From: Desertimonas flava
GTDB taxonomy: Bacteria; Actinomycetota; Acidimicrobiia; Acidimicrobiales; Ilumatobacteraceae
Direction of reading: 5' to 3'
Length of the DNA stretch: 64,000 nucleotides
Assembly (NCBI RefSeq): GCF_003426815.1
Contig: NZ_QKYK01000002.1
Span: 186,001 to 250,000 of the forward strand
Part shown: piece by piece, positions 43,664-63,496 of the stretch
How the letters are laid out: each line of letters starts with the position of its first letter
Position numbering within the stretch: the first letter of the stretch is position 1
Made by a program: the position numbers and the translations under genes
Notes under the pieces: generated by a model
The model's database searches: none
What the model was told of the DNA's origin: nothing
Seen by the model: only the letters and a program-made list of their open reading frames with translations

Positions 43664-44782
43664 ATGGCCAAGCCGAATTCTCACCGTCGATCACCGAGCG
43701 GTGGCGCCAATGCGCCTAGGTTGTTCGAGATGGCAACGACCGCACCGCAGTCCTCCGCTGCCAGGGCCGCCGAGGCATCGGCTGCGTTCCCGCGGCTGAG
43801 GTACATGGGGTCGAAGTACAGGCTTGTTCCCTATTTGGCGGATGTGTTTGCGGAGCTCGAAGGCGGCTCGGCCCTGGATGCCTTCTCAGGAAGCGGGGTC
43901 GTCTCCTACACCCTGAAGGCTATGGGCTACTCGGTGACGGCGAATGACTTCCTCGCCTTCCCGACAGTCATCGCAGATGCCACGGTTGCCAACGATGACG
44001 TCACGCTATCGGACGACGACGTTGCCCGGTTGACGGGTCCGGCCATCGACGATCGGGACTTCATCCAGACCAAGTTCGACGGGCTCTACTTCACGCACGA
44101 AGACCGTGTGTTCCTCGACTCGGCGTGGTCGCATATCGATCGACTTGACGGCGCCAAGCGAAGTATCGCCATCGCTTCTCTCGTCCTCGCCGCAGCGCGG
44201 AAGCAACCGCGAGGGGTGTTCACGTTCACCGACCTTCGCTACGACGACGGGCGGCGGGATCTCAGGCTTCCGCTTCGCGAGCACTTCGTCGAAGCGGCTG
44301 CGGCGTACAACTCAGTTGTCTTCGGCACCGGAGCACCGTGCAGAGCCATCCAATCGGACGTGTTCGAAATCGATCCCGTTGGCTTCGACCTCGTTTACCT
44401 TGATCCGCCGTACGCGCCACCGAAGGACGACAACTGCTACATCAAGCGTTACCACTTCCTCGAAGGGCTGAGCGTGTATTGGCGCGGCCTTGAGATCATG
44501 GAGGACACCCGAACGAAGAAGCTCACCAAGAGGTTCACTCCGTTCAGCTACAAGCGGACGATCGTCGACGCGTTGCGGGACACGTTCAAGAGGTTCAGCG
44601 AGTCGACGATCGTGCTGTCCTACTCCTCGAATGCAGTGCCTGACGCGGAAACGATTGAGCGCCTCCTCGGCGAGGTGAAGAGCGAAGTCGAGGTTCGTCG
44701 AATCGATCACCGCTACCACTTCGGAACGCATCAGGCCGCGTCACGGCGAGAAGCCGTCGAGTACCTCTTCATCGGTCGATGA
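43664..44782 (+). CDS. D12-class N6-adenine DNA methyltransferase
   Basis: Methyltransferase of 372 residues of the alpha (D12) class, which methylates adenine in short palindromic sites. Motif X is RYMGSKYRLVPYL near residues 46-58, the SAM motif I is DAFSGSG (72-78) and catalytic motif IV is LDPPYAPP with DPPY at 247-250. An about 40-residue disordered N terminus precedes the domain. The ATG at 43664 is chosen because AGGAGG lies six bases upstream; the ATG at 43658 abuts it. Its stop overlaps the endonuclease ATG (ATGA), so the two form a restriction-modification pair. Confidence 0.92.
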   Translation: MAKPNSHRRSPSGGANAPRLFEMATTAPQSSAARAAEASAAFPRLRYMGSKYRLVPYLADVFAELEGGSALDAFSGSGVVSYTLKAMGYSVTANDFLAFPTVIADATVANDDVTLSDDDVARLTGPAIDDRDFIQTKFDGLYFTHEDRVFLDSAWSHIDRLDGAKRSIAIASLVLAAARKQPRGVFTFTDLRYDDGRRDLRLPLREHFVEAAAAYNSVVFGTGAPCRAIQSDVFEIDPVGFDLVYLDPPYAPPKDDNCYIKRYHFLEGLSVYWRGLEIMEDTRTKKLTKRFTPFSYKRTIVDALRDTFKRFSESTIVLSYSSNAVPDAETIERLLGEVKSEVEVRRIDHRYHFGTHQAASRREAVEYLFIGR

Positions 44783-45618
44783 CAGTCGGATCTTTCGACC
44801 ACTACGTCGAGTCGCTCAGTCAACTCAGCAATCCATTCGACCCGACCGTCCCGACGGCCGAGAGCGAAGAGATCCGTACCGTCGCCACGCAACTGGCCGC
44901 CATTGGCACCATCGATCGAGCGAGCCTGGCCGAGTTCATCCGGGGTGAGGCCGATGCAGTCCCAGTGCTCGGGCTGGCGGTGGGGCTCACCCGCGAGAAG
45001 CTGAAGAACATCCTCCGCCACCACTTGGGCTCGTCTGGCTGGATAACGCTCGCGCGGGAGAGGTCAGCAGAGGTTGTTGCGATGCTCGACGACAACTACG
45101 ACGTTGTCCGGCTGGTTGACGAACAGCGGTCCCGGACGTACGACTTCGGGGACGTCCTTGTCGCGCGCGCTGGTACACGACGGACAGCAACAGATGCAGG
45201 TGCCACGGGCCGGCGCGTCGAGGACGAGATCGAGCAGGTAGCTACCGACCTGAAGCTCCCATCTGCGACCCGCACCCGATTCGAGGGCCGCAATGGTCAG
45301 ACTGCTCCTTGCGATCTGGCTATCCCGGCAGGGGGCAAGGATGCGCTCATCGTCGTTGCCGCCAAGGGTTTCGATTCCACCGGCTCGAAGCTCACCGACG
45401 CTGTGCGGGAGGTCGAGGAGATGGCCGAGAAGCGACTGCCGACCCAGTTCGTGATGGCGGCAATCGACGGGATCGGCTGGAAGAGCCGGCTCAACGACTT
45501 GCGGAGGATCTACGACCTGCGGGCATCGAACCAGATCGATGGCATGTACACCCTTGAAGGCCTCGGCGAGTTTCGGACCGATCTGGAGGCGGCCGCCAAG
45601 CGGCTGGGGCTGATCTGA
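44779..45618 (+). CDS. DpnII-like type II restriction endonuclease
   Basis: Protein of 279 residues. Residues about 1-120 form an N-terminal helical part; residues about 140-275 resemble the PD-(D/E)xK core of DpnII-type enzymes. The acidic residue is Asp179 in APCDLAIP and the following strand is LIVVAAKGFDSTG with Lys196. In related enzymes this strand reads EAK or EVK, whereas here position 194 is Ala, so the ExK glutamate is missing or supplied from elsewhere (Glu148, Glu150 or Glu152 are candidates). Coupled to the methyltransferase by a 4-bp overlap. The endonuclease call rests on context and the CDL...AK pattern. Confidence 0.75.
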   Translation: MTVGSFDHYVESLSQLSNPFDPTVPTAESEEIRTVATQLAAIGTIDRASLAEFIRGEADAVPVLGLAVGLTREKLKNILRHHLGSSGWITLARERSAEVVAMLDDNYDVVRLVDEQRSRTYDFGDVLVARAGTRRTATDAGATGRRVEDEIEQVATDLKLPSATRTRFEGRNGQTAPCDLAIPAGGKDALIVVAAKGFDSTGSKLTDAVREVEEMAEKRLPTQFVMAAIDGIGWKSRLNDLRRIYDLRASNQIDGMYTLEGLGEFRTDLEAAAKRLGLI

Positions 45619-45749
45619 TATGTCGCGGAGTCGATCAGGCTCCAACGGAGCTCGTTCCGACGACCGACCTGGTTCGGTGGCCGGAAGGGCGAGGGGAGTA
45701 CGCGCAAGCGCTCGGACGAGGCTGGGGCTGGGAGTGCCCGGGATGGAGC

Positions 45750-46601
45750 TCAGACCGCCCGGGATGCTCGCCAAGACACGTGCTCTCGGCTGATCGCTTC
45801 CTCGGCCTCGTTCACGAACGATGCCCAGGCGGCCTCTTCCCAAGCCGGGTTGCCGGTGATCTTGACGTCGATGGCCCCAAGCTCCGCGCTGGCAACTGCG
45901 TACGAGCGCGCCAGCGTCTGGTACTGCTTCACTGCCATCCAAGCCGCCACGGATGCGCCGATGGCGGAGAAGAGCCCAACGGCGTCGAGATCCCAGTCGT
46001 AGATCGCAGCGCCGACGCCGAAGCCGAGCGCCAATCCTGAGGAAAGAACGCCGACAAGCGACCAGATGGTGGCTCTCTTGGAGTTGAACTCTGACTTGCC
46101 TGCGTACCAGGAGCGTTGCGAGCGGATCCGCTCGGACTGATAGGCATCGATGCGCTCAGCGAGCGGTCGAGATCGGAGGGTTCGCATTTCGTCGGTGACG
46201 TGGGCGCCGTTGACAGGCACGGGCATGAGTTGGGCCACCTCACGGGCCACCTCGACCATGCGGGTCGCGAGCTCGATCTCCGACTGCTGGTTGTGAATGC
46301 CGAACGGTTCTCCGCCGACCACGAATCGCCATGCGGCCGTCTTTGCAGACTCAGCACCTGCTCGACCGTTCCACCACTTCTCGTCAGCGCGTGAGGTGAG
46401 CCGGTAGACCTGCGCCATTAGCGCCGTGCCGAACAGGAGCACGACCAACGCGGGTGGTCCGGCGAGCGAACCCACACCGGCGGCCAGAAGGAGCGCCGCG
46501 AGTTGCACCTTCTCAGTCCTCAGGTACCGCCGCTGCCACCGGACGGAGTGCTCGTCGGCGCGACAGTAGAACTCGGGATAGCGGTTCTCGATCAGGGGCA
46601 T
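45750..46601 (-). CDS. SLATT (DUF4231) membrane protein, likely defence effector
   Basis: Membrane protein of 283 residues. The first hydrophobic block (about 34-66) contains two short helices (LAALLLAAGVGSLAGPPALV and VLLFGTALMAQVY). The SLATT signature AGAESAKTAAWRFVVGGEPF lies near residues 82-101. A second membrane pair is near residues 179-200 and 204-225 (GVLSSGLALGFGVGAAIYD; LFSAIGASVAAWMAVKQY). SLATT proteins are predicted pore-forming effectors tied to nucleotide-signal or TIR sensors. Start MPLIENRYPEF; its first 10 bp overlap the end of the TIR gene, so they are translated together. The upstream frame extension is an antisense shadow. Confidence 0.88.
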   Translation of the reverse strand: MPLIENRYPEFYCRADEHSVRWQRRYLRTEKVQLAALLLAAGVGSLAGPPALVVLLFGTALMAQVYRLTSRADEKWWNGRAGAESAKTAAWRFVVGGEPFGIHNQQSEIELATRMVEVAREVAQLMPVPVNGAHVTDEMRTLRSRPLAERIDAYQSERIRSQRSWYAGKSEFNSKRATIWSLVGVLSSGLALGFGVGAAIYDWDLDAVGLFSAIGASVAAWMAVKQYQTLARSYAVASAELGAIDVKITGNPAWEEAAWASFVNEAEEAISREHVSWRASRAV

Positions 46602-47227
46602 GCCGAGTTGATCTTCCTCAGCGCGCGCTTGTTGTTGATGAGATTCGATCGCGAGTCGCGCGCCTTGAAGGCGTCCTCGATCCAGCCACGCAGATCGTCT
46701 GCAGACTGCGGGTAGTAGTGGTAGCGCGCGTAGCGGGATCCGTCCTTGGCCCAGTTGTCGGCGAATCGATCGGGCAACGTGTTGGTCGATCGATCGGCCG
46801 GTGTGAGGGCAAGCAGGCCGTTCCGCTTGTTCACAGGGTCGTTCCGCAGACTCGAGGAGAGCTCCCAATCCACGAACTTCCGAGCCCAGGTGCACTTACC
46901 GACGTACAGGATGGTCACGGTCGAGTCGGACAGGTACTTCGATCCGATCTGCTGCTTGATGTACTCCTCGTCCTCGCTGCTGACCGGGTCCTTGAAGTGG
47001 TCGCTGTCCGAGACGCCGACGACCCGTGGGATGAACACATCGTTGAACTTCTCGACGAAGTCGGTCACGCCCACGATGTCTGCGCCGTGGTACGAGATGA
47101 AGCACTTGTGGCGAACCGGCGCAGTTCGCCCCTGCCGGGAGGCGGCCTGCTTCGCCAGCTCGTAGCTGACCTCAGCTCTGGTCACCGCCTCGAACAGGCG
47201 CTTGCGTTGTTGGTCGGATGTGGACAC
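46592..47227 (-). CDS. TIR domain protein, ThsB/DUF1863-like
   Basis: Protein of 211 residues. After an N-terminal helical lead (about 1-38), the TIR-like domain begins HKCFISYHGAD (40-50), continues DFVEKFNDVFIPRVVG, and has STVTILYVGKCTWARKFVDW with the predicted catalytic Glu122 in WEL. This is the MTH538/DUF1863 subtype that in Thoeris (ThsB) makes ADP-ribose-based signals from NAD+. The start GTG at 47227 has AGAGGAG five bases upstream; the earlier GTG at 47254 lies inside the promoter dyad. It overlaps the SLATT gene by 10 bp. Confidence 0.88.
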   Translation of the reverse strand: MSTSDQQRKRLFEAVTRAEVSYELAKQAASRQGRTAPVRHKCFISYHGADIVGVTDFVEKFNDVFIPRVVGVSDSDHFKDPVSSEDEEYIKQQIGSKYLSDSTVTILYVGKCTWARKFVDWELSSSLRNDPVNKRNGLLALTPADRSTNTLPDRFADNWAKDGSRYARYHYYPQSADDLRGWIEDAFKARDSRSNLINNKRALRKINSACP

Positions 47228-47248
47228 GTCTTCTCCTCTGATCTCGGT

Positions 47249-47279
47249 TGTCACACCAGTATGAACGCGGGGTGTGACA
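47249..47279. promoter_or_regulatory. Operator-like dyad upstream of the TIR gene
   Basis: Perfect 9-bp inverted repeat, TGTCACACC (47249-47257) and GGTGTGACA (47271-47279), separated by 13 bp and ending 22 bp before the chosen TIR start. Spacing of about two helical turns centre to centre suits a dimeric repressor. No regulator gene is present in the island, so a host factor or the TIR/SLATT products themselves could bind. Confidence 0.6.
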
Positions 47280-47430
47280 TCGAAGTCGTGAGGTGGAAGC
47301 GGCGCCGCCCTCCCGGCCGTTTCGGACCGATCACATCAAGAGTGTCAGTGTTGCAGTGACGGCGCGGTTCGCCCCCGCCCCGCTGCACCGTCGAGGTGGC
47401 GAGGGGCTCTGCGGCTCGGGGTTCGTTGCC

Positions 47431-48900
47431 TCATGAGACGCCGTGCTCGACCGGCACCGGTTCGACCCGGCTGGGGTCGAAGTAGCGGCCTCGCTTGCCC
47501 TTCCGGATCACCACGTGCTCGACGAACAGGCCAATGAGGGCACGTTGCTGGTCGAGGTCCAGGCGATCCCAGCTGCCGGCTGTCACGCCCTCGAAGGCCG
47601 TGCCGTCGAGACTGGGGTCGACGGTCAGTTGGTCGAGTCGTCGCCTTGCGAGCAGCAGGCGAGCATGGATGGGATCCTGCGCAGCGAGGAACTGCGCACG
47701 GTTGATCCGCTGCGCGCCGTAGTCCGCCGCAAGGTCGGCGAGAAACTGTTCGTCGGTCTCGATCGAAGCCACCAGCTGGTGGGCGTCGCCGCCGGCTCGA
47801 CGAGCTCGGGCGGTCGCGATGTCGGTGTGTTCGAGCGCGGCGAGCACGTAGTCGACGACGATCTGCTCGACGTAGTCGGCCTTGACGGTGTTGGAGCCGC
47901 AACCGTGCCGGTTCGCCTTGTCGCACGCGAGCGTGCGACGCGGTGGGCGCTGGCCCGGCTTGAGTTCCTTGTCCATGCGTTCGCTGACCGCGGCCATCAC
48001 CGATCCGCACTCGGCACACCGGCACATCCCGGCGAGCAGGTTGACCTTCGGGCGGCGACCGATGGGCGCATGGGCGAGCCGGGAACGCACCTGCTCCCAC
48101 GTCGCCCGGTCGAGGATCGGCTCCCAGGTCGCCTCGCCGACCACCGTGCCCTTCGACTCCCGTAGGCCGGTGATCCGACCTGACCGCAGGATCATGCCCA
48201 GCGAACCGGGCCGCCACTTCTTGCCGTGTGCCGATGGGATGCCGCGCTCGTTGAAGTCGACGACGATCGACGCGAGCGAATGGCCAGCCAGCACTCGGGC
48301 GGCGGCCTCCCGAACGACTGAAGCCTCCTCCGACACGACCTCGATGCGGCCCTGTGCCACCCGCCGGTAGCCGTAGGAGCGGCCGCCGCCGCGGGCGTTG
48401 CCGCGCTCCGCGTTCTGGTGGTGCTTGGCGCTGACGCGTTCGCCGATGCGGGCGGACTCGTGCTCGGCCGCCGCCCCGAGAACCTGGGCGGTGAACCGGC
48501 CGCTCGCCGTGTTCAGGTCGACGTGACCGGCAGCGACCGTCCGGATCTCGACGCCGGCGGAGGCGACCACCTTGGTCAGTTCGACGAGGTCGGCAAGCCG
48601 CCGGTACAGGCGGTCGGGGTGGTAGGCGACGATGATGTCGATCTCGCGCCGGCGGACGAGGTCGAGTAGTCGCTCGTACTCGGGGCGGCACGCACCGGAG
48701 TAGGCGCTCAAGTCGTTGTCGACGAGCACCTCGTCGACGCTCCAGCCCTCCAGGTCGGCCAGGTGGCGGCAGGCGTCGATCTGTCGGCCGACACCGGCCG
48801 CCTCGCCGACCTTGTCCAACGAGATCCGGGCGTAGATCGCCGCGCGCCAGAACAGCGTGGGTGTGCCCGTGCGGACGTTCGACTGTCGCTTCGCCGTCAT
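47431..48900 (-). CDS. Large serine recombinase (integrase)
   Basis: Site-specific recombinase of 489 residues. The N-terminal resolvase domain has the catalytic Ser27 in IYARISLD and the conserved Arg/helix region IIVAYHPDRLYRRLADL. The recombinase domain (about 165-260) has GGGRSYGYRRV and FNERGIPSAHGKKW. The zinc ribbon (about 290-345) has CRCAECGSVM and further Cys in LACDKANRHGCGS. A coiled-coil-like segment follows near residues 375-435. It sits next to the right island end, as integrases usually do. No separate excision factor was seen. Confidence 0.93.
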   Translation of the reverse strand: MTAKRQSNVRTGTPTLFWRAAIYARISLDKVGEAAGVGRQIDACRHLADLEGWSVDEVLVDNDLSAYSGACRPEYERLLDLVRRREIDIIVAYHPDRLYRRLADLVELTKVVASAGVEIRTVAAGHVDLNTASGRFTAQVLGAAAEHESARIGERVSAKHHQNAERGNARGGGRSYGYRRVAQGRIEVVSEEASVVREAAARVLAGHSLASIVVDFNERGIPSAHGKKWRPGSLGMILRSGRITGLRESKGTVVGEATWEPILDRATWEQVRSRLAHAPIGRRPKVNLLAGMCRCAECGSVMAAVSERMDKELKPGQRPPRRTLACDKANRHGCGSNTVKADYVEQIVVDYVLAALEHTDIATARARRAGGDAHQLVASIETDEQFLADLAADYGAQRINRAQFLAAQDPIHARLLLARRRLDQLTVDPSLDGTAFEGVTAGSWDRLDLDQQRALIGLFVEHVVIRKGKRGRYFDPSRVEPVPVEHGVS

Positions 48901-56032: not shown

Positions 56033-57685
56033 TCAGGCGCTGACGAGTGTTGCTTCCGTTTCGTCGGCGGTGTCGGTCTCGGCACCGTCGGTGAGCTCGG
56101 CGACCGGGTCCGGCGTGCTCTCCACCGCCCGGGCGGGGAGGAAGCGCCAGGCGACGAGGGCGCCGAGCAGCACCACGCCGACCGAGACCCACGACCCGAC
56201 CCGCCACCCGTCGATGAACGAGGTGTTGATCGCGTCGTTGATGAAGTTCGCCGCGTCGGGGCCGACCTGCACACCGGCTTGCTCGGCGACCACCTTGGCG
56301 GCACCGACGGACTCCTGGGCGATGCCGACCGCTTCGGGCGGCACCGGAGTGCCGGCGAGGGCGTCACCGAGGCGGGCCGAGTAGATCGACGAGAACACCG
56401 AGCCGACGATCGCCACGCCGAGCGTGCCGCCGAGCTCTCGCGCCGTGTCGTTCACGGCCGAGCCGACGCCCGCCTTCGCCGGGGGCAGCGAGCCCATGAT
56501 CGACTCCGTCGCCGGCGCCTGCACGAGTCCGAGGCCGCCGCCCATGAAGAACATGGCCACGACGACGATCGAGTACGGCGTGTCGGCCGCCGCGCTGAGC
56601 GAGGCGATGAGGAAGCCCGCCGCCATCGAGACGAGGCCGGTGACGACGATTGCCTTGGTGCCGAAGCGACTCGCCAGCTTCTGTGACAGCGGTGCCATCG
56701 ACCCCGTGAAGACGGCGAACGGCACGGTGCGCACGCCGGATTCGAGGGTGCCGTAGCCGCGGACGAACTGGAAGTACTGCGTCACGACGAACACGAATCC
56801 GAAGAGGGCGAAGAAGGCGAAGGTCACGGCGAGGCTGCCGGCCGTGAAGCGCATGTTGGAGAACACCCGCACGTCGAGCATCGGGTGATCGATGCGGCGC
56901 TCCCAGGTGACGAACGTGCCGAGGAGGACGGCGGCGAGGGCGAAGGCGGCGATGCTCGTGCCCGATGCCCAACCGTGCTCCGGGCCTTCGATCACGGCCC
57001 ACACCAGCACGCCGATGCCGGCGATCGACAAGACCGTGCCGAGCGGGTCGAAGCGGTGGATGGTGGCGTCCCGTGACGTGGGGACGATGCGGCCGACGGC
57101 GACGATGGCGAGGATCACCACCGGCACGTTGATCATCAGCACCGAGCCCCACCAGAAGTGCTCGAGGAGGAAGCCGCCGGTGACCGGTCCGAGGGCGACG
57201 GCGACCCCTGCCGTGGCGGCCCAGACGGAGATCGCCACGGCCCGCTCCTTCGGGGCGGTGAAGACGTTGACGAGGATCGCCAACGTGGCGGGGAACAGCA
57301 GGGCGGCACCCACGCCCATGGCGGCGCGCCAGCCGATGAGCTCGGTGGGCGAGTCGCTGAGCGCGGCGAGCGCCGAGAATCCGCCGAAGAGGGCGAGGCC
57401 GATCTGCATCACCCCCTTGCGGCCGAACCGGTCGCCGATGCTGCCGGCGGCGATGAGCAACCCGGCGAACACCAGCACGTACGAGTCGACGATCCACTGC
57501 AGGTCGCGGTTGGAGGCGCCGAGCTCGGTGACGAGCGACGGGAGGGTGACGTTGACGATCGTGCCGTCGAGGACGACGACGAACACGGCGAGACAGAGGA
57601 CGCCGAGGATCGCCCACCGATTGCGGTGGGCTGAGCTGTTCGTGGACAGCGTCGGCGGTGCGGCCGAGGCGGGTGGTGCGGACAC
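56033..57685 (-). CDS. MFS transporter, DHA2 (14-helix) drug:H+ antiporter type
   Basis: Membrane protein of 550 residues with 14 predicted helices. Motif A is AGSIGDRFGRKGVMQIG; motif C is GPVTGGFLLEHFWWGSVLMI; N-terminal FVVVLDGTIVNVTLPSL carries the D1 motif (LDxTIVNVALP) of DHA2 exporters. A charged tail follows the last helix. It is divergent from a TetR-type gene with an operator-like dyad in between, so it is probably a regulated drug or metabolite exporter. GTG start. Confidence 0.9.
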   Translation of the reverse strand: MSAPPASAAPPTLSTNSSAHRNRWAILGVLCLAVFVVVLDGTIVNVTLPSLVTELGASNRDLQWIVDSYVLVFAGLLIAAGSIGDRFGRKGVMQIGLALFGGFSALAALSDSPTELIGWRAAMGVGAALLFPATLAILVNVFTAPKERAVAISVWAATAGVAVALGPVTGGFLLEHFWWGSVLMINVPVVILAIVAVGRIVPTSRDATIHRFDPLGTVLSIAGIGVLVWAVIEGPEHGWASGTSIAAFALAAVLLGTFVTWERRIDHPMLDVRVFSNMRFTAGSLAVTFAFFALFGFVFVVTQYFQFVRGYGTLESGVRTVPFAVFTGSMAPLSQKLASRFGTKAIVVTGLVSMAAGFLIASLSAAADTPYSIVVVAMFFMGGGLGLVQAPATESIMGSLPPAKAGVGSAVNDTARELGGTLGVAIVGSVFSSIYSARLGDALAGTPVPPEAVGIAQESVGAAKVVAEQAGVQVGPDAANFINDAINTSFIDGWRVGSWVSVGVVLLGALVAWRFLPARAVESTPDPVAELTDGAETDTADETEATLVSA

Positions 57686-57755
57686 GATGTGCTCCTTGTC
57701 GGGGTGGGGGTGGGGTGGGAGCGGCGTGATCGAGGCACGGTGACGGTGATCACGT

Positions 57756-57787
57756 TGCTATCACAGTGTTATCACACCGCGATAGCA
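57756..57787. promoter_or_regulatory. Operator-like dyad between transporter and TetR genes
   Basis: Inverted arms TGCTATC (57756-57762) and GATAGCA (57781-57787), enclosing TATCACA direct repeats at 57759-57765 and 57770-57776 with 11-bp period. The 110-bp divergent gap is AT-richer than its surroundings. A TetR dimer site controlling both genes is likely. Confidence 0.6.
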
Positions 57788-57795
57788 TTGTCTGC

Positions 57796-58479
57796 ATGAC
57801 GGTTGACACACCGACGGCGCAGTACGGTGAACAGGCCATGGATGCGCCGCCGACCGCTGCCCGAGACCAGGGCCCTCCACCGCGCCCGTCGGCGGGCGCC
57901 GGTGCGGACGAGACCCGCGCTGCGCTCCTCCAGGCCGCCCACGACCTGCTCGCCGCCGAAGGTCCCTCGGCGCTGTCGGTCCGGCGGATCGCCGCCGCCG
58001 CCGGGGTCAGCACGATGAACGTGTACTCGCGCTTCGGCGGCAAGGTCGGTGTGCTCGACGAGCTGTGGATCGACGGCTTCCGGCGCCTCGGCGAAGCGAT
58101 GCAGGACTTCCCGCTCACCGACGATCCGTTGGAGAACCTGCGGCGGTGCGGGCAGGCCTACCGCGCCTTCGCTCGCGCCAATCCCACGTACTACTCACTG
58201 ATGTTCGACCAGGCCGTCCGCGACTTCGAACCCTCCGAGCACGCCAAGGCGGTCGCCTTCGACTCGCTGAGCCGGGTCGTCGAGCGGGTGCAAGCGGCGA
58301 TGGACGAGGGGGCGATCCCGGCAGGAGACGCCTACCAGGTCGCCGTCGGGCTCTGGGCGTGCGAGCACGGGCTCGTCAGCCTCGAGATGCGCATGGAGCA
58401 CGACGGCGAGTTCGACTGGGACCACATCGCCCCGGCCACCGTCGCCGCCCTCGTCCGCGGGCTCGCCGCCGGGCGCTGA
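57796..58479 (+). CDS. TetR family transcriptional regulator
   Basis: Regulator of 227 residues. An about 40-residue disordered N terminus precedes the TetR HTH: ALLQAAHDLLAAEGPSALSV followed by RRIAAAAGVSTMNVYSRFGG (about 45-90). The C-terminal ligand domain is helical (WACEHGLVSLEMR near the end). Divergent from the DHA2 transporter; it probably represses that gene and itself. ATG at 57796 is chosen over an earlier in-frame ORF start that would lie inside the dyad. Confidence 0.9.
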   Translation: MTVDTPTAQYGEQAMDAPPTAARDQGPPPRPSAGAGADETRAALLQAAHDLLAAEGPSALSVRRIAAAAGVSTMNVYSRFGGKVGVLDELWIDGFRRLGEAMQDFPLTDDPLENLRRCGQAYRAFARANPTYYSLMFDQAVRDFEPSEHAKAVAFDSLSRVVERVQAAMDEGAIPAGDAYQVAVGLWACEHGLVSLEMRMEHDGEFDWDHIAPATVAALVRGLAAGR

Positions 58480-58494: not shown

Positions 58495-59922
58495 TCAGGG
58501 CGTCGTCGCCTCCGTGTCCGGAGCGGTGCCGCCGGTGTCGTCCCCGGCGAACGGCCCGGTGACGGCGAACGTCGCGCCCGGGTCGTACATGTTGAAGAAC
58601 AGCGTCGACCCGTCGTCGCTGAAGTTGGCGCCGGTCAGCTCGCTGGCGTCACGGGCGTTGCGGGCGAAGATGCTCGTGCTGCCGTCGGGGGCGACCGTGA
58701 ACAGGTGCTGGGCGCCGGCGCCGTCGCAGCACACCAACAGCCCACCCCACGGTGACACCGTGACGTTGTCGGGCCCGTCGATGGCATCGCTCTCAGGAGC
58801 ATCGTTCAGCCCGAAGCGGACGACGAGCTCGAGGGTGCTCGCCGCCGGGTCGAGGCGCCAGATCTGCCCGTCGTGTTCCTGGGCCGAGCCGTCGCCGAGA
58901 CGGGCGAACGAGCTGACCACGTGCACGGCACCGTCTCCGAACCACATGCCTTCCAGCTTGCGCGCCCGGGTCACCTCGTCCAGCTGCGTGCGCGTGTAGG
59001 TCTCCACGGCCAGAGGGTCGGGGACCGGCACCCAGCCCACCGACAGGACCGTGCCGACGTCGGAGTACACCGACAGGTCGCCCACGAGGGTTCCCCCGTC
59101 CTTGGCGACGAGCGCCTCGAGCGACGCTCCGGCCCGCAGCGATGCCCAGCCACCGAGCGGACGCGAGGGCAGGGCCCGGTAGAGCAGCCCGTTGGGCTCG
59201 CTCGCGTCCTCGCTGAGGTAGACGATGCCCGTGGTCGGGTCGATGACCGCAGCTTCGTGGGCGAACCGGCCGAGGCCGTACAGGGGCGTGGGGTTGAGGT
59301 TGGCGAACGGATTCACGGGATCGACCTCGAAGACGAAGCCGTGATCCTTCGTGAGGCCGTTCTCGCCGGTCCGCCACTCGGTCTCCTCGCACGTGAGCCA
59401 GGTGGCCCACGGTGTCTTGCCGCCGGCGCAGTTGGCGACGGTGCCGCCGAGGCTGAAGTACTCGGCGACGACGCCGTGGGCGTCGTCGAGCTCGGTCGTC
59501 GTCGTCCCGCCCACGGCCGCCGGGTCGTAGGTGAGCTCGAGCGCGGCGATCACGTGATGCTCGTGGTCGGGCGGTAGCCATTGCTCGCTGTTGCGCACGA
59601 GGAAGCGCCGGCCGTCGATGTCGAACAGCCCGGATCCGTCGAACGCGTCGGGCAGTACCCCGGCGCCGCCGGTCAGGGGGCCACCCGACTCCGAGACGAT
59701 CTGGTACGTGAAGCCCGCCGGCAGGTCGAGCACGCCAGCCGGATCGGGCACGAGGTCGCCGTAGCCGTTGGCCCAGGAACGGACGGCGTTCCGCCGGGCA
59801 GATGCCGGGCGACCCGACGCCGCACCGGCGGTGGTGGAGAACAACGTCGACGTGCCGCCGGTGAAGACGAGGCCGGCGGTGGCGGCGCCGCCCTGGAGGA
59901 TCTGCCGGCGGGTCAGTCGCAT
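58495..59922 (-). CDS. Tat-exported PhoX-family phosphatase
   Basis: Protein of 475 residues with a twin-arginine signal (LTRRQILQGGAATAGLVF, cleavage near residue 35). The body matches the PhoX/DUF839 beta-propeller family: ESDAIDGPDNVTVSPWGGLL with downstream LVCCDGA, GRFAHEAAVIDPTTG and YLSEDASEPNGLLYR are recognisable propeller segments with acidic residues for Ca/Fe binding. PhoX enzymes hydrolyse phosphomonoesters outside the membrane. Convergent with the TetR gene; the ATG has no strong Shine-Dalgarno sequence. Confidence 0.87.
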   Translation of the reverse strand: MRLTRRQILQGGAATAGLVFTGGTSTLFSTTAGAASGRPASARRNAVRSWANGYGDLVPDPAGVLDLPAGFTYQIVSESGGPLTGGAGVLPDAFDGSGLFDIDGRRFLVRNSEQWLPPDHEHHVIAALELTYDPAAVGGTTTTELDDAHGVVAEYFSLGGTVANCAGGKTPWATWLTCEETEWRTGENGLTKDHGFVFEVDPVNPFANLNPTPLYGLGRFAHEAAVIDPTTGIVYLSEDASEPNGLLYRALPSRPLGGWASLRAGASLEALVAKDGGTLVGDLSVYSDVGTVLSVGWVPVPDPLAVETYTRTQLDEVTRARKLEGMWFGDGAVHVVSSFARLGDGSAQEHDGQIWRLDPAASTLELVVRFGLNDAPESDAIDGPDNVTVSPWGGLLVCCDGAGAQHLFTVAPDGSTSIFARNARDASELTGANFSDDGSTLFFNMYDPGATFAVTGPFAGDDTGGTAPDTEATTP

Positions 59923-60809: not shown

Positions 60810-62087
60810 TCAGCCGTCGAAGGAGTCGAACGAGTCGGCGCTGTCGAACGACTCGCCGCCGTCGAACCCGGACACGTCAGCCGTGACGTCGGCCGCGAAT
60901 CCCTCGTCGGCCGCGAACCCGCCGGCGTCGACGCCGAACGTCGGGTCGGGCGCGCTGTCGAAGGACTCGTCGATCGAGGTGTCGAACATCGTGACGCTGC
61001 TGCTGTCGAACTCGCCGGCGGCGCCCGAATCGGCGACATCTGTCTCCATCGACACGGGGTCGGCCATCGCCCCGCCGTCGCCGAGATCGGCACCGGGCTC
61101 GGAGGGTGACATGAGGCCGTTGTCGTCGCCGAGCGTCGCCGGATCCATCAGGTCGGAGTCGTTGCCCACATCGCCGCCGAGCGAGTCAGGACGCATGAGG
61201 TCGGTGTCGTTGTCCTGGCCCGGCCCGTCGGGAGCGGACTCACTCGAGGTGTCGTTCGGGTCCATCAGGTCGGTGTCGTCACCGGAGTCGGGCACGCCGA
61301 CACCGTCGACGTCGCTCGGGTTCATCAGGTCGGTGTCGTTGCCGGAATCCTCGGAGGCAGAGGCGTCGTCCGACTCGGCGCCGTCGGGCAGCGGGGGCGG
61401 CGGGTCGTCGTACCCCGGCGTCGCGTCGGGGAACGACGGGACGACGGTGCGGATGATGCTGCGATCGATCGAGATCGCCGCGGCCTGGGCGATCAGCGCC
61501 GCGGCGCCCGCCGAGGAGCCGTCGCCGACGCCGATCGACTCCTGCTGGTACTGCGTGCGCGCTTGCTGGAGGAGGTCGGCCTGCCGGTCGAGCTTGTCCA
61601 GCTCCGCCTCGGCGGCTCGCGCCTGCAGCGTGGCGTCCCGGCGCTCGACGTCGAGTTCGGTGACTCGCTGGGCGTGGGTCGCCGCCTGGCTGCGGTGCTC
61701 GGCGGCGTCGAGCGTCGCCTGACGCGCTCGAGCCTCGTGCTCGGTGATCTCGGTGCGCCGGCCGATGACGATCTCGCGGTCCTCGGCGGCGTCGGCATGG
61801 TCGCCCCGCTTCTCGGCGGCCACGGCGGCAGCCTCGAGTTCGGCGATCTCCTTCGCCGCCTCCTGCGAGAGACGCCGCGCCTGCTCGATCTGCTGATCGG
61901 CGGCCTTGGCCGCCTGTTCCGCGGCCTGCTGCTCGCGAGCGGCCTGATCACGGGCGATGCCGATCTCCGACCGGCGGGCGCCGACACCGGCAGCCATCTG
62001 TTCCCGCGCGCTCGCCGCCTCGGCGCGCAGGGCCTCGATCTTCGGCTTGAGGTTCCACTGCAGTTGGTAGGGGTCGTTCGGGGCCAT
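60810..62087 (-). CDS. Coiled-coil protein with acidic DxDLMxP repeat tail
   Basis: Protein of 425 residues not assigned to a family. Residues about 15-185 form a long Ala/Glu/Arg/Gln-rich coiled coil. A short Ile/Val-rich segment follows (residues 195-220). The C-terminal half is strongly acidic and Ser/Gly/Asp-rich and holds five repeats: DTDLMNP (251-257), DTDLMDP (271-277), DTDLMRP (294-300), DSDLMDP (310-316) and DNGLMSP (322-328). The end has repeated FDS/FDG. No signal peptide is visible. It could be a cytoplasmic scaffold whose tail binds partners or calcium; no function is implied by neighbours. Confidence 0.75.
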   Translation of the reverse strand: MAPNDPYQLQWNLKPKIEALRAEAASAREQMAAGVGARRSEIGIARDQAAREQQAAEQAAKAADQQIEQARRLSQEAAKEIAELEAAAVAAEKRGDHADAAEDREIVIGRRTEITEHEARARQATLDAAEHRSQAATHAQRVTELDVERRDATLQARAAEAELDKLDRQADLLQQARTQYQQESIGVGDGSSAGAAALIAQAAAISIDRSIIRTVVPSFPDATPGYDDPPPPLPDGAESDDASASEDSGNDTDLMNPSDVDGVGVPDSGDDTDLMDPNDTSSESAPDGPGQDNDTDLMRPDSLGGDVGNDSDLMDPATLGDDNGLMSPSEPGADLGDGGAMADPVSMETDVADSGAAGEFDSSSVTMFDTSIDESFDSAPDPTFGVDAGGFAADEGFAADVTADVSGFDGGESFDSADSFDSFDG

Positions 62088-62209: not shown

Positions 62210-62283
62210 GCTCCAGTAGCTCAGTCGGATAGAGCGACTGCCTCCTAAGCAGTAGGCCGCAGGTTCGATTCCTGCCTGGGGCG
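62210..62283 (+). tRNA. tRNA-Arg (anticodon CCT)
   Basis: Cloverleaf of 74 nt. Acceptor GCTCCAG pairs with CTGGGGC (one G-T), D-arm TAGCTCAGTCGGATAGAGCG, anticodon stem ACTGC/GCAGT with loop CTCCTAA (anticodon CCT, reading AGG), T-arm with GGTTCGATTCC. No 3' CCA is encoded. It stands alone between the coiled-coil gene (opposite strand) and a convergent surface-protein gene; no att-site or integrase is linked to it. Confidence 0.95.
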
Positions 62284-62371
62284 CTCGTGTGATGTCGCCG
62301 GACATCCCGCACCAGCCGAGCCCCCGATGGAGACTCGGCTGATTCGGCCCCGGCCGCGAACTCCGTCCAGG

Positions 62372-63496
62372 TCAGCGGGTCGCGTCGTGGCGGCGTCCGC
62401 CGCGTGCGAGCAACGCCACAGCGACGCCGACGCCCGTCACGAGCAGCGCCCACACCATCGTCGACGGCGCCGACGTCGAGCCGGTGGGCGGGATCTGCGG
62501 CGTGGTCGTCGTGGTGGTCGGGGCCGGCTCACCCTGCGGACGGGACACCTCGCTCGCCGCGAGGGCCATGTCGAACAGCGTGCCGGTGGCGTTCAATTCG
62601 AGCACCGGAGTCACCTGTGCCGCAGCCCGGACACCGCTCGCCGGCGAGCGCAGAGCGGCCGGCCCGCTTCCGAGCGAGACGTGGAGGTCGAGTGTGGCGA
62701 CGGCCTGCAGGCCGACGGCGGTGGCCGAGTCGCTGCCGACGGTGGTCGCGGACTCGGCCGTCACCGTGATCGAACCGAACCACGACAGGACGGTCAGATC
62801 GTCGAACGGGAGGTCGGCGATTCCGCGGGTCACCTCTTCGAGCTGCGCGTCGGTCAGGAAGAACTCGCTCGTGATGGGCTGGTTGGGCACGAGGCCGAAC
62901 GGGATGCCGCCGATGGAGAAGGTCGCGACGTCTGCGGTTGCCGTCGGGGGGTCGACGGACCCGTTGTCGAGATCGTCGACGCGAGCGTCGGCCCGGGACG
63001 TGATCTCCTCAGCAGACAGGATCGGGATCGTGCCAAGTCGAGCCGAGGCGACGGCGATGCCGGAGAGGGCTTCGAGCCCGTCGTGGTACGACTGCCAGTA
63101 CGTGGAGTAGGCGGCGTCGGTCGCGCGAGCGGAGTGCACGGTCAGCTCGCTCAGCGACACCACCGGGCTCACCGCAGGGATCTCTGCCGCGGCCAGCTGG
63201 TCGTCGACGACTCCGTATGGTGCGTCCGGCGTGTCGGCTGCATCGGTGACGAAGCTCTCGCCGTCGATCAACGTGTCGCCGTTCAGCTGGGCCACCAGGC
63301 CCTCGAAGAGTGGACTGTTTGACGAGGCGTCGATGGTGATCTCACCGATCGAGACATCGGCGGCCTGCGCCTGGGCCGAGCCGCCGGCCGATGCCATCAC
63401 CGGCGTTTCGGCGGCCGCAGCGAGAGCGACACCGCCGACAGCGAGGCCTCCGGCAAGGGCCCAGCTGCGCACGCGTCGATGAGACTGTGAACGCAT
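62372..63496 (-). CDS. Secreted surface protein with PPTG-type sorting signal
   Basis: Protein of 374 residues with an N-terminal signal peptide (RVRSWALAGGLAVGGVALAA, cleavage near ASA/AQA). A large Ala/Ser/Thr/Val-rich extracellular domain (about 45-310) follows, then a Thr-rich stalk and an IPPTGSTS motif near residue 337. A hydrophobic helix (MVWALLVTGVGVAVALLARG) and an Arg-rich tail GGRRHDATR complete a cell-wall sorting-like signal. The pentapeptide is IPPTG rather than LPxTG. ATG start. The exact family is unrecognised. Confidence 0.75.
   Translation of the reverse strand: MRSQSHRRVRSWALAGGLAVGGVALAAAAETPVMASAGGSAQAQAADVSIGEITIDASSNSPLFEGLVAQLNGDTLIDGESFVTDAADTPDAPYGVVDDQLAAAEIPAVSPVVSLSELTVHSARATDAAYSTYWQSYHDGLEALSGIAVASARLGTIPILSAEEITSRADARVDDLDNGSVDPPTATADVATFSIGGIPFGLVPNQPITSEFFLTDAQLEEVTRGIADLPFDDLTVLSWFGSITVTAESATTVGSDSATAVGLQAVATLDLHVSLGSGPAALRSPASGVRAAAQVTPVLELNATGTLFDMALAASEVSRPQGEPAPTTTTTTPQIPPTGSTSAPSTMVWALLVTGVGVAVALLARGGRRHDATR

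Follow-up and report, generated by a model that had tools for sequence, protein, structure and literature searches.

Eukaryotes offer many well-documented arrays of short linear motifs carried on oligomeric scaffolds; few bacterial cases are known. Endocytic adaptors of the Eps15 and AP180 type have tails strung with such motifs, and Eps15 also has a coiled coil. The C-terminal end of Eps15 carries a series of 13-15 DPF triplets (PMC2238750). PopZ, the polar organising protein of Caulobacter, joins a helical oligomerisation part to an acidic, expanded disordered part; this disordered region, at -0.28 net charge per residue and with a Pro content of 23-29%, tunes condensate properties (PMC9512792).

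The protein described here, of 425 residues, is encoded in a window of 64,000 nucleotides, the whole stretch of Desertimonas flava DNA that was analysed. As analogies, PopZ is its closest working counterpart for which numbers can be given, and Eps15 the closest for the string of motifs. In the tail (aa 233-425, 193 residues), 44 Asp and 9 Glu stand against a single Arg and no Lys, for a net charge of -52 or -0.27 per residue, close to the -0.28 given for PopZ (PMC9512792). With a pLDDT of 39-51 per ten-residue block in the AlphaFold2 model, it is an acidic and predicted disordered region, as in PopZ. The likeness is one of predicted architecture and of charge; no sequence relation was found, the whole protein having no match in Pfam at E<=1 and none above the NCBIfam cut-off. 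Unlike PopZ, the D. flava protein has its helical part at the N-terminus in the form of a long predicted hairpin, and the tail, with 7% Pro against 23-29% (PMC9512792), bears two motif arrays. The comparison with Eps15 and AP180-type adaptors is one of analogy only: the 425-residue protein has no Pfam domain at E<=1, and its motifs are LMxP and FD[STG] rather than DPF.

The gene and its setting

The gene occupies 62087 to 60810 on the minus strand, where the preliminary description had placed it, and translates from its ATG into 425 residues. Its codon-position GC of 0.74/0.50/0.91 is what is expected of a real coding frame, and the third-position value is 0.91 in the coil and in the tail alike. 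A longer in-frame start exists at 62453. A tRNA-Arg(CCT) gene lies at 62210-62284 on the opposite strand, and since a start at 62453 would traverse it, the ATG at 62087 is the likely start. The features are as follows.

60810..62087, minus strand: whole gene, 425 aa plus stop (ATG at 62087, translation, codon-position GC)
61809..62072, minus strand: helix 1 of the predicted hairpin, aa 6-93 (AlphaFold2, single sequence)
61530..61799, minus strand: helix 2 of the predicted hairpin, aa 97-186 (AlphaFold2, single sequence)
61392..61529, minus strand: linker, aa 187-232, with short predicted helices at 193-204 and 209-215 and a Pro-rich end (AlphaFold2, single sequence)
61101..61340, minus strand: tail block 1, aa 250-329, five LMxP, four of them DxDLMxP (motif and shuffle counts)
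60813..61019, minus strand: tail block 2, aa 357-425, ten Phe, seven F-D-[STG], two G-F-A-A-D and no Leu (motif counts)

A dienelactone hydrolase gene is convergent with the gene on one side and the tRNA-Arg gene is divergent on the other. The gene is thus solitary, and no operon partner hints at its function. Simple scans found neither promoters nor terminators. No signal peptide is apparent by eye in the N-terminal MAPNDPYQLQ, so the protein is probably cytoplasmic.

Several neighbours were noted in passing. A 374-residue protein encoded at 62372-63496 (minus strand) lacks a Pfam match at E<=0.01; judged by eye, its N-terminus is signal-like and its C-terminus is made of IPPTGS, a hydrophobic stretch and then RGGRR, which we take to resemble a sortase-type anchor. 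At 58495-59922 (minus strand) lies a PhoX-family alkaline phosphatase gene (E 5.7e-70), the product of which begins MRLTRRQILQGGAATAG and looks by eye to carry a Tat-type signal. An MFS transporter gene stands beside a divergent TetR-family regulator gene at 56033-58479, a usual efflux arrangement. GC dips to 0.637 at 44001-48000; the remaining 4-kb blocks of the window range from 0.668 to 0.723.

Predicted hairpin and acidic tail

The N-terminal part had been described as a long coiled coil. A single-sequence AlphaFold2 model of aa 1-245 shows two long helices with a mean pLDDT of 84.2, and the single-sequence model of the full-length protein shows the same two (mean pLDDT 62.7, pTM 0.42), so that this part is predicted to form a two-helix hairpin. 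A test of seven hydrophobic periods gave the maximum at 3.6 for helix 1 and at 3.4 for helix 2, neither of them the heptad value of 3.5. We therefore use the term helical hairpin rather than proven coiled coil: long paired helices are retained from the earlier account as a prediction, but the heptad periodicity is not. In the tail, where pLDDT falls well below that of the hairpin, the model contains neither helix nor strand, and disorder is predicted.

The tail contains two motif blocks that are segregated, with no Phe in aa 233-340 and no Leu in aa 341-425. The first array has LM pairs at aa 254, 274, 297, 313 and 325, in cores that read, in order, NDTDLMNP, DDTDLMDP, NDTDLMRP, NDSDLMDP and DDNGLMSP, for a consensus of [DN]-D-[TSN]-[DG]-L-M-x-P (n=5). 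The five DLM-Pro repeats reported earlier are correct as five LMxP motifs, but DxDLMxP is present in four of the five cores and the last (DNGLMSP) retains LMxP only. These counts lie beyond those of shuffled sequence. When the 193 residues of the tail were shuffled 200,000 times, D.DLM.P reached at most 1 (observed 4) and LM.P at most 2 (observed 5), and the four bare DLM were equalled once. Spacing from LM to LM is 20, 23, 16 and 12 residues, and the linkers separating the LMxP cores, of 12, 15, 8 and 4 residues, are dissimilar in sequence. The Leu codons vary between CTG and CTC and the Pro codons among CCG, CCT and CCC from copy to copy with the residues unchanged, and no DNA tandem repeat was reported in block 1 at a minimum score of 30. 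The LMxP array would look like the outcome of old duplications in which the motif is constrained, which is an argument from one protein and not a test. In the organism's own 6.22-Mb genome, DxDLMxP, sought as GAYNNNGAYCTSATGNNNCC with Leu as CTS, occurs four times, all in this gene; the reversed control of the pattern gave 0 matches.

A second array had been missed. The last 69 residues (aa 357-425) hold ten Phe, spaced by 8, 8, 8, 7, 6, 11, 6, 6 and 3 residues. Seven of them are F-D-[STG]; 100,000 shuffles of the last 77 residues averaged 0.74 such motifs and never gave more than 5. Bare FD is less extreme, its observed count of 7 being reached in 39 of 100,000 shuffles. An 18-base unit is repeated in tandem, in 2.4 copies, in the DNA at 60825-60867. 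Because the end of the gene is still such a repeat, part of the FD array is young and may stem from repeat growth. Collectively, the repeat-bearing acidic tail of the preliminary description is confirmed, and the feature is non-random, unusual and slightly richer than first reported, while being of a known general kind.

Search for relatives

The preliminary description did not recognise a family, and this holds: the full-length sequence matched no Pfam family at E<=1, and no enzymatic part is evident as a result. On the hairpin, Pfam returned just weak, unconvincing matches to Tubulin (E 0.12), YlqD (1.3) and SOAR (9.2). NCBIfam had none above its cut-off, with sub-threshold coil matches to pneumococcal surface protein A (E 0.0046) and SMC; PHROGs gave two weak matches to families of unknown function, and PDB sequences four weak ones to tail-needle or head-completion coils (E 0.02-0.03).

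Genome searches were carried out in samples that overlap at the order, family and phylum levels. Among 61 genomes, comprising the organism's own and those of relatives, the protein itself was the sole match at E<=0.001. In the order (397 genomes) 64 reached E<=1, and in the family (221 genomes) 9 reached E<=0.05, the organism itself counted each time; the best E-values apart from its own were 0.0013 and 0.0019, and neither sample held a convincing relative. In the phylum (376 genomes) there were 3 with E<=0.001 including itself, the other two (7.2e-4 and 8.0e-4) being judged unrelated. At most four candidates per genome were scored in the order and phylum and at most eight in the family, so a weak homolog could escape. 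Fourteen of the 29 weak-match loci were inspected by eye and dropped as relatives, none of the frames viewed showing an LMxP or FD array. They include what we take to be a GTPase (four genomes), a DNA-repair ATPase, an insertase, two deiminases, an RNA methyltransferase and a GntR-type regulator; others are likely wrong-frame translations, and one is a short helix with a Pro-rich tail (L059). A peptide pattern fitted 130 stretches of GTDB contigs, 0 of them confirmed by tblastn, and 6 stretches of IMG/VR, 0 confirmed; plasmids had no match to the protein at E<=0.1.

The pattern search for the motif that had been proposed was also run. A motif doublet sought in the 397 genomes of the order occurred in the organism's own genome only, with 3 matches all within the gene. 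The motif pattern had 0 matches in IMG/VR and one other in GTDB contigs, in Williamsia. This stretch (L054:3710-3783) was rejected as an ortholog: it is a 15-base tandem repeat reading (DLMDP)5 in an 80-codon frame, and the unit, in about five copies, lies near the start of another frame open for 312 codons. With Leu fixed as CTS in one or both copies, some motif copies could escape such patterns; as far as searched, the array is confined to the 425-residue protein. Occurrence in this protein alone, with repeats unconserved in orthologs, had been named as the outcome that would refute the observation. The first half of this is what we found, as far as searched; no ortholog turned up in which conservation could be checked.

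Synteny was sampled at tRNA-Arg genes elsewhere: 29 loci (17 CCT, 10 TCT and 2 CCG), taken from many matches in other genomes, contained nothing related to aa 1-236, tblastn reaching E 0.033 at best; the test is weak because several loci are cut by contig ends. A literature search on the motif letters returned nothing related, as judged by title. The protein is an orphan within the samples searched, where no convincing relative was found, and since the genus is represented by one genome, that of D. flava itself, this absence may reflect sampling.

Alternative readings

The main rival to a binding function sees in the tail an acidic low-complexity extension peculiar to the lineage, which would have grown through short duplications and serve only as a charged solubilising bristle, its motifs being relics of duplication and not binding sites. 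The D/S/G/A-rich composition, the visible 18-base tandem repeat in the C-terminal DNA and the lack of a convincing relative in the searched samples are consistent with it. Block 1, however, was not reported as a DNA tandem repeat at a minimum score of 30, and its LMxP residues persist while the linkers differ in length and sequence and the Leu and Pro codons differ. We consider the bristle unlikely, if a serious contender.

A second possibility is that a Ser/Thr kinase acts on the tail at several sites: the T/S preceding D-L-M would be phosphorylated and read by an FHA domain, switching the scaffold. Position 3 of the cores is T, T, T, S and N, acidic surroundings of Thr are a known kind of kinase site, and the organism's genome has 7 FHA matches over cut-off. 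Yet the fifth copy has Asn at this position, the invariant residues are LM and P rather than T, and FHA domains also match in 6 of 14 control genomes. Their presence thus discriminates little and permits the kinase reading without favouring it; we judge it improbable.

Calcium-binding repeats had also been put forward. D-x-D beside N and D, in a tail with 44 Asp among 193 residues, could suggest that calcium or another cation is bound, as in RTX or EF-hand-like loops. Against this, aa 246-425 (60813-61352, minus strand) matched 0 Pfam families at E<=10, within HMMER filters that can lose weak, short repeats; the irregular motif spacing fits by eye neither RTX nor EF-hand, a metal loop would not usually have a constant Leu-Met-Pro, and the protein is probably cytoplasmic, where free Ca2+ is low. 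Cation binding is very improbable, and this part of the earlier account finds no support here.

The hairpin itself was suspected of being a divergent PspA/IM30 (ESCRT-III-like) membrane-remodelling hairpin with an added tail, because its turn AEKRGDHADA resembles by eye the AEKAGDAAKA of the organism's own PspA. The alpha-helical hairpin predicted here would be a likeness to PspA, IM30 and Vipp1. PspA 1-144 (4whe) superposes with Z 9.9 (rmsd 3.1, 122 residues) and Vipp1 (7o3x) with Z 9.8 (rmsd 5.3, 152 residues), but other helical hairpins reach Z 11.7 among the matches listed. Foldseek gave 384 matches at E<=10 and none at E<=0.001; the 50 listed are assorted helical structures, some of them ESCRT-III-like. 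Within HMMER's filters, aa 1-245 had no match to PspA_IM30 (PF04012) at E<=10, and PspA is already encoded elsewhere in the genome, where neither of the two PF04012 matches at E<=10 is this gene.

PspA profiles were built from the order with 22 of 30 loci (8 omitted, including the four best Pfam matches) and then with all 30. After bias correction, 964 of 2000 heptad-kept shuffles reached the score of the protein with the 22-sequence profile, as did 775 of 2000 plain and 1278 of 2000 block shuffles. With the 30-sequence profile the counts were 322, 233 and 558, slightly more favourable to the PspA reading but still inside the decoy range. When the bias was added back, a mild excess appeared over heptad-kept shuffles (121 and 38 of 2000 reaching the protein for the 22- and 30-sequence profiles), but block shuffles still reached it in 529 and 234 of 2000. 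Against the 22-sequence profile the protein scored -17.8 bits and the 30 true PspA 86-457 bits, 22 of these being members of that profile. An ungapped comparison with the own-genome PspA did no better than chance, its score being reached by 164 and by 193 of 500 shuffles, and its best diagonal leaves the two turns unpaired. With bias-corrected profile scores within the decoys, no Pfam PspA match at E<=10 and fold matches shared by many hairpins, we do not assign the protein to PspA/IM30, the least probable of the alternatives. The own-genome PspA (L067) likewise ends, by eye, in an acidic, Ala/Pro/Glu-rich tail.

Discussion

We tentatively favour, at a little under an even chance, a cytoplasmic multivalent scaffold that combines a helical oligomer, an extended acidic tail and two blocks of stickers. 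The LMxP and FD[STG] counts lie far above shuffles, the blocks are segregated, and the motif residues are constant despite codon and linker variation. The charge of the tail is near the PopZ value, its pLDDT is low, and no enzymatic part is evident in the protein. Set against this, the hairpin comes from a single-sequence model and its hydrophobic period is off the heptad, the Pro content of 7% lies far below that of PopZ, and a recently grown low-complexity tail could yield the FD array without selection. The suggestion of a short linear motif in the preliminary description, the interpretation of which is partly supported, is the best available reading of LMxP, which recurs in a D/N/T context with varied linkers and predicted disorder.

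In such a scaffold, we infer that the predicted hairpin would self-associate and display several copies of the tail, which charge repulsion would keep extended. The five LMxP motifs may then act as hydrophobic stickers for a single kind of partner groove, and the about ten Phe motifs could serve a second partner or self-association. Single sites would bind weakly, and the many sites per oligomer might provide avidity or form a condensate.

A more specific proposal, which we regard as doubtful, is that the protein is an undescribed bacterial hub of one lineage, with the LMxP and FD[STG] arrays recruiting two partners to the helical oligomer or condensate. If true, this would be a bacterial analogue of the endocytic motif-string adaptors. 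If the arrays bind no distinct partners, the gene would be one more orphan with an acidic tail; if they do, it would be a compact example from nature, in a lineage that has been studied little.
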